From assembly GCA_027054335.1 (NCBI GenBank), contig JALUPA010000042.1:1-41332 (forward strand): a stretch of 41,332 nucleotides of DNA, written 5' to 3'. A program made the translations under genes and the position numbers. Shown here in pieces: positions 29,483 to 38,736 of the stretch. This stretch comes from Ardenticatenaceae bacterium (lineage in GTDB: Bacteria > Chloroflexota > Anaerolineae > Promineifilales > Promineifilaceae). The first letter of the stretch is position 1; every line of letters begins with the position of its first letter. The notes under the pieces are model-generated. The model was not told the DNA's origin. It ran no database searches and saw only the letters and a list, made by a program, of their open reading frames with translations.

Positions 29483-29572
<90 letters not shown>

Positions 29573-29642
29573 TCAACAAAAGGATGCCTAACATCTGTTT
29601 TGTTGTTACAATATTTAACAAATGGCCTTCCAGGATGAACAT

Positions 29643-29731
29643 GGGGAGGTGCCAGAGTGGACGATTGGGGCCGCCTGCTAAGCGGTTAACGGTTTAAAAG
29701 CCGTTCATGGGTTCGAATCCCATCCTCCCCG
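29643..29731 (+). tRNA. tRNA-Ser (anticodon GCU)
   Basis: The acceptor stem GGGGAGG/CCTCCCC with discriminator G, the T-arm TGGGTTCGAATCCCA, and the anticodon loop CTGCTAA with GCT define it. A long variable arm (AACGGTTTAAAAGCCGTT) confirms the class II structure. It reads AGC/AGU serine codons. Confidence 0.95.
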
Positions 29732-29758
29732 CTCTCATCATAGTCAGGTCACTTGCAG

Positions 29759-29833
29759 GCGCCCTTAGCTCAGTTGGATCAGAGCGTGCGGCTACGAACC
29801 GCAAGGCCGGGGGTTCGAGTCCCTCAGGGCGCA
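29759..29833 (+). tRNA. tRNA-Arg (anticodon ACG)
   Basis: The acceptor stem GCGCCCT/AGGGCGC with discriminator A, D-arm TAGCTCAGTTGGATCAGAGC, anticodon loop CTACGAA with ACG, and T-arm GGGGGTTCGAGTCCC(T) define it. The A34 of ACG is normally edited to inosine by TadA. It is the last tRNA of the cluster. Confidence 0.95.
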
Positions 29834-34106: not shown

Positions 34107-35022
34107 TCAGGGAGACACGGCCGTTTCTGCTCTTGCTTTTAAGGTGTTGGTAACGGCCGTCCTGTCTTTGACGATGTGTTGACTGACCTTATAGTAACAG
34201 AATCCGGCAGGAATAACGAGAAATTGAAAAGCGGCCGGGGTGATGGCGTAATTGTCAGGCGAGGGGTAATCGACGGCCAGGGCTGTGATGAGAAAACCGG
34301 CTGCGCCCACGCTGAGAGCGTTCCCCACCGCTCGGAAAAGGCGGCTGATGCCGATGACTGTGCCCCGGTGTTCCGGCAGGTTGACGTCGGTAAGCATGGC
34401 GGCCCAGTTGGACGGATCGCTGGATTGCAGGGCGATGGCGGCGAAGGCGACGAGAAAGGCGAAGATAACCCAGGGATTGGTGAAGAGGAAGCCCAGCCCG
34501 GCAATAACCAGAAAGGGCAGCCGCCAGTCGAGCGCGCCCAGCGTGCCGGCCAGCAGCGCCCCGCCCGCCGCCCCAATCCTCTGGGAGATGCTCCACAAGC
34601 TCAAGGCCATCCCCCGGCGCGGTACGGGAATGATGTCGCTGACGACGCTGAACCCGACGGAACTAATGCCGCCTACGCCCACGGCCGTAACCATCTGAAA
34701 GAGCAAAAACCAGGCAAAGCTGTGGGACAGGGCAGTGAGGATCATGGCTGCGCCCCAGAGGAGCGTGCCGTAGAACAGCAGCGGTTTGCGTTTAGTGCGG
34801 TCGCCGCGGTAGCCCCAGTAGATGGCGGACAGGGCGACGATGATCAGGTAAACGGCCGTGACGCCCCCCCAGCGCCGCATCATTAGCCCCCAAATCGCGG
34901 GAAATGATGGCGTAAAGCGGCGGCAAGACGCCCGCCGCCGCATTGTCCAGCGAAGCCAGAACAATGAAGACGACGAAGGAATACAGTAATTGCCAGTCGC
35001 GTTTGAGCGTGGGTTTGTTCAT
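34107..35022 (-). pseudogene. MFS transporter, frameshifted and apparently shortened
   Basis: The N-terminal part from ATG 35022 (MNKPTLKRDWQLLYSFVVFI, first membrane segment, DNAAAGVLPPLYAIISRDLG) runs out of frame at a run of seven C (34864-34870; G on the coding strand). Removing one G joins it to GVTAVYLIIVALSAIYWGYR in the other frame. That frame contains the MFS loop GYRGDRTKRKPLL, helices 3-6, and a C-terminal part ending ITPAAFQFLVIPAGFCYYKV. The total is only about 305 codons where MFS carriers have about 400. After helix 6 the sequence jumps to a late-half motif (SSDPSNWAAMLTDVNLPEHR), so helices about 7-9 also seem lost. The frameshift could be phase variation or a sequencing error; the shortness suggests decay. 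Confidence 0.75.
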
Positions 35023-35249
35023 TTGTTCCTGATTATATCTGCCATTTCGATTAGCCGGTGACGGCCGTTTTTCATCCTGCTTTTCCTTTGTGTCTGATGA
35101 GAGTTTTCCGGCGATAACTGTACGGGGGCTTGATACAGCGGGGGGGGAGACGATATTCTTTTGGCGCATACAGCCGGCTTAAATTAGGATCAGGGTTTCA
35201 GGAAACTAGGTAGCTGGAAGGTTACAGAAATGACAAAACAGGAGGTAAG

Positions 35250-35942: not shown

Positions 35943-36204
35943 CAGGCAAGGTTTGTGAAGCCTGATATGTTATGATAACTCCCGTATATATTAACTGCTC
36001 GAGATAATTCCTTCTCGATACTTTCAGGCTTGATCGCTCTACATTGAGAGGAACTGAGTAAGTAATACGGTGAAATGTCAAGAGGCAAAATAAGCCAATT
36101 TTTACTGAAAAGCAGGTAAGCTACCGCGAACCTGCCACATCGCACTTTATCAACCGAATAGCAGGTTATGAAGCTGATATTACCAGCAGCACAGACTGGC
36201 TGTT
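35943..36204. other. Non-coding stretch at the 3' side of the IS110 element
   Basis: No gene is visible here. It contains ATCAGGC/GCCTGAT (35940-35968) and GCAGGT/ACCTGC (about 36111-36134) stems and is AT-rich. It probably holds the right end of the IS element. Confidence 0.5.
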
Positions 36205-37467
36205 TTAGCCGTTCTCGTCGTTAGGCGCCTGCCTGGCCCGGAACGGTTCGTTGGTCGTTAGCAGCCGCACAACCAACCGAACGAGCTTACGAGCGGTGAG
36301 TACAATGGCCCGCTTATGCCGATGATGACGAACTTCATGGTACTTTTTCTGGTAGAAAGCAGCATACTCAGCATCGTGCATTCTAACCAACTGAGCTGCT
36401 TCGCAAAGATAGTAACGGAGAAAACGTGAACCAGTCCGCTTGAGCCGGGTTTCTTCGGCGGTGAACTCGGCCGACTGATGTTTTGACCACTTGAGACCGG
36501 CATAACTGGCCACTTTGGCCTGATTGTAATCAAAACGAGCCAGGTTGCCGATTTCAGCAATGATGCCAGCGGCAAAGACCGGGCCGATACCGGGAATCGT
36601 GGTCAAGGTATTGGGATAGTTGTCCATCTGGTCAGCAATAGCCGTATCTATCCGGGTCAACAGTTGTTGCAACACGGTGATATGGCGCAAACTCAAGGTC
36701 ACGGCCGTATGAACCGAGGTCGCCCACTCATCCGGCAACCGGTAGGAATCGCGGGCAATTCGTTGCAGGCGGCGAGCGTTATCTTCCGGTTGCGCAAAAC
36801 GCCGTTTCCCCTGGATGTCCAGCCATTCAACCAGGTCGTCAAACGGCATGGCCGCTACTGTTTCCAATGAGGGGAACTCCTTGAGAACCGCCTGGCTGGT
36901 GCGGCTAAAGATGTTGGAAAAAGCGGGTTGGGCGGTGTACTCGCTGGCTTGGAGGTAGATCAGAGCCAGCGTGTGGGATTTGACCCGCACTAATTCACGC
37001 ACCAAATGGTAGCGATAACGAGTGAGGGTACGTAACGGCAGATAGCGCTCTTCCATATGAAAAGGATACGGCAGTTCCCGGCCAAAACGCAACCGTTCCC
37101 CGATAACGGCCGTGTCTAAATCGTCGGTTTTGTCCCAATCTCCCAGGGATTTACGGAAATTGTGGATAATTTTGGGGTTGAAGGGATAAAGAGACAAGGG
37201 CCAATCAGCCAGAGTGGGCGACCGTTCCAATTCACAGAAGAAGGGCAGCCAATAATTGCCGGTAGCTTCGGCAGCCACATGAATGTGGTCATAACCGCCG
37301 GCCTCGGCCAGCTCAGCCAGTTGGTTGGCCAGCGCAGCCGTACCGGGCCGGTTATTGGTCACCCGTAACCGGGACGTCAGCGTCCGGCCAGCGCCATTCA
37401 TAACCTGCACCACGTTAGTGCGGCGGTGAATATCCACGCCCACTAACAAATCATTTGTGGAAAACAT
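36205..37467 (-). CDS. IS110-family transposase (DEDD recombinase)
   Basis: This 420-aa recombinase moves the IS by RNA-guided recombination, as shown for IS110 relatives such as IS621. The N-terminal RuvC-like domain has LLVGVDIHRRTNVV (D12), HVAAEATGNYW (E67) and DKTDDLDTAVIGERLRFG (D115/D118), the DEDD acidic residues. The C-terminal Transposase_20 domain has LTTIPGIGPVFAAGIIAEIG, YAGLKWSKHQSAEF with the likely catalytic Ser, and RTGSRFLRYYLCEAAQLV. ATG 37467 follows AGGAGG at five bases. GTG 37473 in frame is less likely. The gene looks intact, so the element may still be active. Confidence 0.92.
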   Translation of the reverse strand: MFSTNDLLVGVDIHRRTNVVQVMNGAGRTLTSRLRVTNNRPGTAALANQLAELAEAGGYDHIHVAAEATGNYWLPFFCELERSPTLADWPLSLYPFNPKIIHNFRKSLGDWDKTDDLDTAVIGERLRFGRELPYPFHMEERYLPLRTLTRYRYHLVRELVRVKSHTLALIYLQASEYTAQPAFSNIFSRTSQAVLKEFPSLETVAAMPFDDLVEWLDIQGKRRFAQPEDNARRLQRIARDSYRLPDEWATSVHTAVTLSLRHITVLQQLLTRIDTAIADQMDNYPNTLTTIPGIGPVFAAGIIAEIGNLARFDYNQAKVASYAGLKWSKHQSAEFTAEETRLKRTGSRFLRYYLCEAAQLVRMHDAEYAAFYQKKYHEVRHHRHKRAIVLTARKLVRLVVRLLTTNEPFRARQAPNDENG

Positions 37468-37743
37468 AAACACCTCCTATTGTGGTTATTTGCCGCAAGA
37501 GGGGTCTGAATCCCTGAGTCCTGTTGAGGTCAGCAGCCTCGTTAAATGAGAACTTGACCAGCCGCGAGAATGCTCATCGGTCTGCTACCCGAATCGCCGC
37601 TGGCGTTGAACAAAATACGGGTTAGAAGTTCCCAACAGGCTGAGGGGCGCATACTTACGTAGAAGTCCTTCTGGCGAAGGCAACAAGGAGAAAGAGCGCT
37701 TCCTCTTGGGCTGTTTACTACAGCATCTCGGGGATTCAATTTA
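37468..37743 (-). ncRNA. Candidate bridge RNA region in the 5' end of the IS110 element
   Basis: The roughly 270 bases upstream of the transposase have no open frame of note but several possible stems: GAGG/CCTC (about 37526-37540), GGTCA/TGACC (37528-37559), and CCTTC/GAAGG (37667-37680). IS110 elements of the IS621 type encode their bridge RNA in this upstream segment, with target- and donor-binding loops. I cannot delimit the RNA or its loops by eye. The call rests on element type, position and length. Confidence 0.4.
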
Positions 37744-37748
37744 TTGTC

Positions 37749-37766
37749 AATGGGGATGTCCCCATT
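37749..37766. repeat. Palindrome AATGGGGA-TG-TCCCCATT next to the IS110 5' end
   Basis: It has perfect 8-bp arms with a 2-base centre, 29 bases before the next gene. IS110 elements often land near palindromes. It could equally be an operator of the gene at 37795. Confidence 0.6.
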
Positions 37767-37794
37767 ACTACATATCATACGAGGAGATAGCACG

Positions 37795-38736
37795 ATGCAA
37801 AGACCGAAGGTTTTTATAGGAATGGGAATGTTTGCAGGTTTCATAGTAGTTGTTGCCCTTTTGTTTAACTTGAGGCCACAGGGTGTAAACGCATCTTCAC
37901 GTATGAAATCTCTATCTGCATTACCTGATACTCCTTTGACTGCACAATCTGATCCCCAGGATGTATTGATGTTGATGCTCCACAGTCACTCGACATGGGA
38001 TACAGTAAGCCTTAGTGCTGTGGAGATGACACGTAATTTGGAAGATGGGAATATCGCTGAATCAGTGACGCATATGCAAATAAAACAACCAGACAAAGCT
38101 TTCCTGACGCGGACATTGGGTGGTCAGAAATATGTCTGGCGTACTGATGGCAACACAATTTTTACTGAATTGGACGATCTTAATGTTTATACAACCCAAG
38201 TTGTGCCAAATGAAGTAAAAGAGTCATTCCAAAACTATGTGGTGCCATTGATTGATTCAAGCGAGCCGGCTATTTACCCACATCCTTTTGGTGTTGGTAT
38301 ACCGACAGGGCTAAATGATCAAATTTACCCAACAGGTATCGCACAAAATATGTTTCAAAATGCTGAAGTTGCTATTTTGGGAAAAGAGACCATTGTCAAT
38401 CGTGCCGCTATCGTGATTTCACGCACACATGTTTTTGAAGATGGGACTATAGCCAAAAAACATACTTATTGGGTTGATGCTGAAACCGGAGTGATTCTCA
38501 AATATCAAGTTTGTGTCCCGGAAAACGAGAATCTTTTATACCAATATGGTTGTAATTGGATAATTCAGACAGTAATCACTCAAATCCTATTCGACAAGCC
38601 AATGACGGACAGTATGTTTGATCTTACAAAAATAACGACCAATAGCAGATATGTGCCATGGGATGAACTAGAAAGATTACTTTGGGGACAATCGCCTTCC
38701 GATTTACCTTTTGTTCAACAAGGAAAGGAGTCGTAA
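37795..38736 (+). CDS. Exported LolA/RseB-like protein
   Basis: This 313-aa protein (ATG 37795, GAGGAG upstream) has an N-terminal anchor or signal (KVFIGMGMFAGFIVVVALLF). The rest looks like the LolA/RseB/MucB beta-half-barrel: WDTVSLSAVEMTRNLEDGN, SVTHMQIKQPDKAFLTRTLG, KYVWRTDGNTIFTELDDLNV, and later VNRAAIVISRTHVFEDGTIA followed by HTYWVDAETGVILKYQVCVP. That last block, a carrier or stress-sensor motif, is typical of such proteins (outer-membrane lipoprotein sorting or anti-sigma-factor-binding). The DNA is AT-rich and has no ACGGCCGT. It starts an exported-protein run, with the next ATG two bases after its stop. The assignment is from pattern, not exact motif. Confidence 0.6.
   Translation: MQRPKVFIGMGMFAGFIVVVALLFNLRPQGVNASSRMKSLSALPDTPLTAQSDPQDVLMLMLHSHSTWDTVSLSAVEMTRNLEDGNIAESVTHMQIKQPDKAFLTRTLGGQKYVWRTDGNTIFTELDDLNVYTTQVVPNEVKESFQNYVVPLIDSSEPAIYPHPFGVGIPTGLNDQIYPTGIAQNMFQNAEVAILGKETIVNRAAIVISRTHVFEDGTIAKKHTYWVDAETGVILKYQVCVPENENLLYQYGCNWIIQTVITQILFDKPMTDSMFDLTKITTNSRYVPWDELERLLWGQSPSDLPFVQQGKES

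Follow-up and report, generated by a model that had tools for sequence, protein, structure and literature searches.

We conclude that W, the IS110-group copy carried by the window (the whole 41,332-nt stretch of Chloroflexota DNA analyzed here), is very probably an intact insertion sequence whose predicted bridge RNA guides its recombinase to a Shine-Dalgarno sequence at a CT core. This reading joins two known facts, that bridge RNAs steer IS110 elements and that some IS110 elements enter ribosome-binding sites. If it is true, the guide alone sets the Shine-Dalgarno preference, the element follows a rule for placing itself between promoters and genes with translation starts intact, and genome engineering could draw on the natural variety of recombinases and guides in this clade.

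Extent and ends of the element

The ends of W (Table 1) were placed by alignment with independent copies at different sites. Three copies in one other Anaerolineae genome (L003, L004 and L006) and one in a second genome (L005) are 78–80% identical to W and diverge from it outside approximately 37785–36060, the interval over which homology extends. The left end begins with CT followed by CGTATGATATG and the right end finishes with ACCGTATTA followed by CT, the core being present on both sides. W occurs once in its own genome and, as judged by the alignment and the exact ends, is untruncated. An earlier note on this DNA had correctly recognized an intact IS110 element but had placed it at 35970–37743; its 5′ end (37743) fell 40 bases short, omitting both the junction −10 box and a near-palindrome, while its 3′ end (35970) lay 93 bases too far out and took in host DNA. 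The upstream non-coding stretch that it had put at about 270 bases is indeed long and structured, folding better than shuffled sequences (minimum free energy z = −2.62; 2 of 200 shuffles as low), but measures 316 bases from core to ATG. The near-palindrome at 37749–37766, thought at that stage to lie outside the element as a possible target feature, belongs to the left end and is retained in L003–L006 with compensating changes (AATGGG..CCCATT to AACGGG..CCCGTT); being both internal and covarying, it was ruled out as a target feature.

A search for empty sites, also suggested in that note, succeeded for relatives. The empty site of L041 was found at 302 of 302 bases (100%) in Enterococcus plasmids and that of L040 over 302 bases (97.4%) in a Priestia plasmid. 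These exact empty sites show that, in these two distant relatives, the element entered at a single CT and duplicated no target bases, and by analogy we infer the same for W. For the W copy itself none was found among 52 family genomes, six of which (W's own included) contain a homologue of the target gene, the best of the others being 34% identical; for L006 none was found within its genus (134 of 302 bases in genome G047).

Table 1. Positions in the window of W, its component features and its target site.
Feature	Position	Strand	Basis and remarks
Whole IS110-group element W	36063..37783	(-)	1721 bp, counting one CT core (the left one); ends by alignment with copies at other sites; relatives' empty sites fix the same junctions
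Left copy of core dinucleotide CT	37782..37783	(-)	W end alignment
Right copy of core dinucleotide CT	36061..36062	(-)	W end alignment
TATGAT, −10 box of predicted circle-junction promoter	37774..37779	(-)	In left end
TTGACA, −35 box of predicted circle-junction promoter	36076..36081	(-)	In right end; 17 nt from −10 once ends are joined
Near-palindrome, a hairpin inside the left end	37749..37766	(-)	Covaries in close relatives
Structured bridge-RNA region (predicted)	37503..37739	(-)	Closed by TGAATCCC/GGGATTCA; fold and covariation
Left target guide CTTTCTCCT	37686..37694	(-)	Flank has CTATCTCCT; permutation test
Right target guide ACGTAAG	37654..37660	(-)	Complementary to CTTAC of right flank; scan and permutation
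Left donor guide CCGTATTTT	37612..37620	(-)	Right end has CCGTATTACT; scan and permutation
Right donor guide ACGAG	37538..37542	(-)	Complementary to left end CTCGT
Transposase/recombinase ORF, DEDD and Tnp domains, catalytic S332	36205..37473	(-)	Likely start ATG at 37467; 420 residues; Pfam and profile alignment
Shine-Dalgarno AGGAG at insertion point	37782..37786	(+)	Opens with the two core bases; ATG at 37795 follows 13 nt on
Target gene, translation start region entered	37795..38736	(+)	No Pfam match

Guide segments fit the target flanks and the element ends

The four putative guides of W fit their expected partners at 8 of 9 positions (left target), through five bases in a row (right target, GTAAG), through seven in a row (left donor, CCGTATT) and at 5 of 5 positions (right donor). 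In an unbiased scan, in which every alignment column was compared with every target or donor position across 19 elements, the best target diagonal placed CGTAAG of W (37654–37659) against the right flank, and 14 of 2000 permutations reached it; when each related group was represented by a single element (n = 15), this right-guide signal was weaker (195 of 2000). The left target guide by itself was not outstanding in the same scan (z of approximately 3.3, reached by most permutations). With the left-end self-match set aside, the best donor diagonal placed CCGTAT of W (37615–37620) against the right end, and none of 2000 permutations reached it in either set.

The guide test was then widened to 26 unique RNAs, that of W included, with the register (two RNA classes) set by eye from the RNA alone; because the guide permutations ignore kinship, reduced sets with one element per group were also used. 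Agreement of the left guide with its own left flank came to 142 of 182 across the 26 elements, where 95.7 would be expected, and none of 20,000 permutations gave so high a value; agreement of the right guide with its own right flank came to 63 of 125 (25 elements; 45.3 expected; 2 of 20,000). The one-per-group sets gave 119 of 147 for the left guide (21 elements; 0 of 20,000) and 51 of 100 for the right (20 elements; 9 of 20,000). One close relative, L005, misfits its own left flank (3 of 9). On the donor side, agreement between the left guide and its own right end reached 121 of 150 against 79.5 expected (25 elements; 0 of 20,000), the guide changing together with the right end (CCGTATC, CCGTTGG, CCATTAG, CCACTGG and others). 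The right donor guide likewise follows the left end, CTCG going with CGAG and CTTG with CAAG (60 of 20,000); CAAG is confined to the two elements in which the left end begins with CTTG. Comparison of both loops with the flanking bases, which the earlier note had proposed as a check, thus came out in its favor: by scan and by permutation, the guides fit both target flanks and donor ends.

Insertion at Shine-Dalgarno sequences

When the flanks of W are rejoined they read TATCTC-CT-TACTC, the complement of which, GAGTAAGGAGATAGCACGATG, is a Shine-Dalgarno sequence located 13 nt before the ATG at 37795. Across Chloroflexota and Bacillota, 33 of 39 insertion sites lie 12–14 nt before a start codon, as compared with 60 of 478 control AGGAG sites in the sampled DNA. 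These 39 sites correspond to 26 unique RNAs, since a single RNA is common to L003 and L004 and likewise to the members of each multi-copy set; L063, which has no RNA, was counted only as a site. The six sites that miss are those of L005, L027, L028, L042, L060 and L070: L060 and L070 have an ATG at 12 nt that opens a short frame, the ATGs near the L028 site are 7 and 10 nt away, and the insertions of L027 and L042 are not at a Shine-Dalgarno sequence before a start codon. Public annotation of six plasmid relatives places the beginning of an annotated CDS right at the insertion point in all except L042. In W and most relatives, AGGAG and the start codon of the neighboring gene are left intact on the left-end side. 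Outward promoters that might serve the target gene were also sought; none was convincing by eye, and a scan found 2 against 2.2 expected.

The left guide of W (..CUCCU) is complementary to the Shine-Dalgarno sequence, and CTCCT occurs in 19 of the 26 left guides. The tail of 16S rRNA carries the anti-Shine-Dalgarno sequence, and we infer that the guide resembles it because a guide of this kind finds targets whatever the host and keeps insertions out of coding sequence. Some relatives depart from this motif. The Bacillota element L057 and its copies carry CCCCC in the guide, and 7 of 7 copies lie before start codons, at AGGGGG. Still other guides, with other matching targets, are found in L039, L042 and L027. 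This agreement indicates that guide and target move together, with most lineages staying on Shine-Dalgarno-like words. As an observation in its own right, L057 and the six further copies in genome G897, all at CCCCCT before start codons, form a natural multi-site data set.

The same counts bear on a rival account, in which the guide leads only to CTCCT-like words and the Shine-Dalgarno bias arises from selective loss of insertions within genes. The guide spans about nine bases, and 352 of the 478 control AGGAG sites lie within ORFs of at least 100 aa, both of which speak for such selection. Outside ORFs of that length, however, a start codon follows only 28 of 126 control sites, as compared with 33 of 39 insertions (Fisher 2.7e-12), and L057, with its altered guide CCCCC, still lies before a start codon in every one of its copies. 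We therefore regard selective loss as a possible but doubtful source of the bias, and prefer guidance to the Shine-Dalgarno sequence; that real starts are favored beyond other AGGAG words may reflect the combined length of the nine-base left guide and the right guide, or else selection.

A complete transposase and a predicted junction promoter

The transposase of W matches the Pfam families DEDD_Tnp_IS110 (4.3e-22) and Transposase_20 (1.4e-20), and a profile of 14 relatives matches IS621 (PDB 8wt6, E 1.4e-21) and ISCro4 (9t56, 3e-21). In the profile alignment D12, E67, D115, D118 and S332 of W align with D11, E60, D102, D105 and S241 of IS621 (residue names as given in excerpts of Hiraizumi 2024, PMC11208158). 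The four acidic residues are invariant in 14 of 14 sequences and the serine is kept in 13 of 14 (Thr in L028). Directly after the catalytic serine, W and three relatives carry alanine and the other ten carry glycine; IS621 has G242 there, a difference that tells against the reading for W. The earlier description of a complete transposase with the DEDD residues and the Tnp-20 serine is borne out by these matches.

Joining of the two ends of W would create the box pair TTGACA-17-TATGAT, which has 11 of 12 consensus bases, a score reached by none of 300 shuffles. A box pair with 17-nt spacing is present in 26 of 26 distinct junctions, with a mean of 10.9 of 12; the two ends in their integrated state, read together with the flanking DNA, give 8.5 and 8.9. 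The same layout is described, in the excerpts of the respective reports, for IS621 (Hiraizumi 2024, PMC11208158) and ISEc21 (Siddiquee 2024, PMC11187229).

That the W copy is a dead relic appears improbable. It is a single copy in its assembly, and deletion derivatives without the bridge RNA do occur among its relatives (L024 and L063), but W keeps its ORF, catalytic residues, both ends, junction promoter and guides. We continue to read W as intact, with the caution, which also bears on the alternative considered for its 5′ end below, that what is known of this copy comes from its sequence.

Fold and covariation of the 5′ non-coding end

The structure of W, drawn by hand, comprises the closing helix, a small 5′ hairpin, a target loop and a donor loop, with the closing helix (TGAATCCC/GGGATTCA) enclosing both loops. 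The target loop is built on the helix GAGG-AA-GCGC / GCGC-C-CCTC and an apical hairpin, CCTTC/GAAGG, and the donor loop is closed by CCTGTTG/CAACAGG. Across six related sequences pairing holds in 92.0% of cells, and of the 45 pairs 8 have changed on both sides as compared with 3.6 in shuffled controls, a number reached in 1 of 500. For the Bacillota, eight sequences and a structure drawn from L040 gave 22 of 48 pairs changed on both sides as compared with 12.4 (0 of 500); the helices were drawn from one sequence in each case, which favors that structure in slid controls. RNAalifold recovered only 14 pairs from a mixed alignment of 16 sequences, a low count that we put down to misaligned variable helices, and an Rfam search returned no family matching the bridge-RNA region. 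Two guide loops, helices that covary in both sequence sets and a junction promoter agree with what the earlier note had proposed for this 5′ end, namely an IS110 bridge RNA, which remains a prediction here. Both the guides and the covarying helices precede the transposase gene, which sets W apart from the IS1111 group, with its guide RNA in the right (3′) end. A candidate internal promoter in the left end, TTGACA-17-GATGCT, overlaps the closing helix of the RNA, has no counterpart in L027 or L029, and was left unproven.

It is very improbable that the 5′ end does no more than act as an untranslated leader and a cis-acting end of the DNA, with guide matches that are due to chance or inherited: related elements do share sequence, but each of the four guides matches a different DNA end, at columns that stay fixed, the matches are supported by permutation, and paired positions in the RNA region show compensating changes.

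Proposed mechanism

The scheme that follows takes circle formation, RNA transcription, synapsis and strand exchange from IS621, and combines them with the ends, guides, covarying RNA, junction boxes and site preference observed in W and its relatives. W would excise as a circle, in which the joined right and left ends form a sigma70-like promoter (TTGACA-17-TATGAT). That promoter would transcribe the 5′ non-coding end as a bridge RNA, followed by the recombinase. Around the CT core, the predicted target loop has a left guide equal to the left flank and a right guide complementary to the right flank, and the donor loop has guides fitting the two ends of W itself. Synapsis bridged by the RNA and strand exchange at CT would then insert the circle without target duplication. 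The predicted insertion site for the recombinase of W is TATCTCCTTACTC, and a guide of the Shine-Dalgarno type would give targets in almost any bacterium and spare coding sequence.

We lean slightly towards a broader reading, in which a wide IS110 clade, in Chloroflexota and Bacillota at least, carries a guide that imitates the 16S anti-Shine-Dalgarno tail and thereby uses a near-universal landing pad; this would also explain the entry of IS900 at translation starts.

Comparison with known systems

The target of W is a Shine-Dalgarno sequence, whereas that of IS621 is a REP element. The proteins differ in length (420 aa in W, 326 aa in IS621), and W has a left end of 316 bases and a closing helix around both loops. 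W resembles IS621 (IS110 group; PDB 8wt6) as portrayed in excerpts of Durrant 2024 (PMC11208160) and Hiraizumi 2024 (PMC11208158): both combine a DEDD and Tnp serine recombinase with a left-end bridge RNA, a target loop followed by a donor loop, a CT core and a junction promoter, the RNA and the promoter being predictions in W. ISEc21 and other seekRNA elements, for which an excerpt of Siddiquee 2024 (PMC11187229) reports that the upstream NCR is needed for circle formation and transposition, share with W that upstream NCR, the junction promoter and the lack of target duplication. ISEc21 has a different target, and according to the same excerpt its function is proven experimentally, whereas W has been studied only as DNA sequence.

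IS900, an IS110-family element of Mycobacterium avium subsp. paratuberculosis, has the target motif CATGNNNNNNTCTCCTT in the part of PMC8141618 that describes it, and the title of Doran 1997 states that it targets translation initiation signals. W fits the IS900 insertion pattern CATG-N6-TCTCCTT with CAT-C-GTGCTA-TCTCCTT, in which the spacing is the same and the single difference is C in place of G directly behind CAT; the start codon lies 13 nt from AGGAG in both, a likeness judged from the published IS900 motif. IS900 has hed on the opposite strand, whereas W has no plus-strand ORF of at least 80 aa within 36063–37783. A search for an IS900 sequence for comparison returned one Mycobacterium plasmid with a weak, partial match. 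Among open-licence PMC papers we found none linking bridge RNA, IS110 or IS900 with Shine-Dalgarno, anti-Shine-Dalgarno or ribosome-binding-site targeting. Targeting of ribosome-binding sites in the IS110 family is thus precedented by IS900, and what is added here is a bridge-RNA guide that accounts for the target.

Sampled relatives and additional observations

The following were left out of the counts: repeats of one locus (L001, L010, L011, L012, L019, L022, L023, L031, L033 and L044); L024, in which the bridge RNA is deleted and the left flank is Shine-Dalgarno-like by eye; elements with the left end absent or cut (L020, L030, L032 and L061); fragments (L009/L043, L018 and L021); and more distant elements (L014–L017 and, from W's own genome, L034–L036), one of which, L017, lies at a Shine-Dalgarno sequence by eye. 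L024 and L063 are deletion derivatives of 1419 and 1487 bp that have lost the bridge RNA and kept both ends, and are possibly mobile in trans. L020, a 63% relative, is a decayed copy that retains the right end, has a single in-frame stop and shows no recognizable left end.

A 55-base remnant that is 89% like the left end of W is present elsewhere in the same genome (contig C702, 19581–19624; L002, approximately 1501–1554), where it immediately precedes the Shine-Dalgarno sequence and ATG of a gene that, by eye, is molybdopterin-oxidoreductase-like. It is a solo left end or a scar that a related element left behind, and its location is of the same type as that of W.

Elsewhere in the window, two overlapping ORFs in different frames (34107–35169, minus strand) resemble, by their translations, one frameshifted membrane transporter, and three tRNA genes stand in tandem at 29483–29833 (plus strand).
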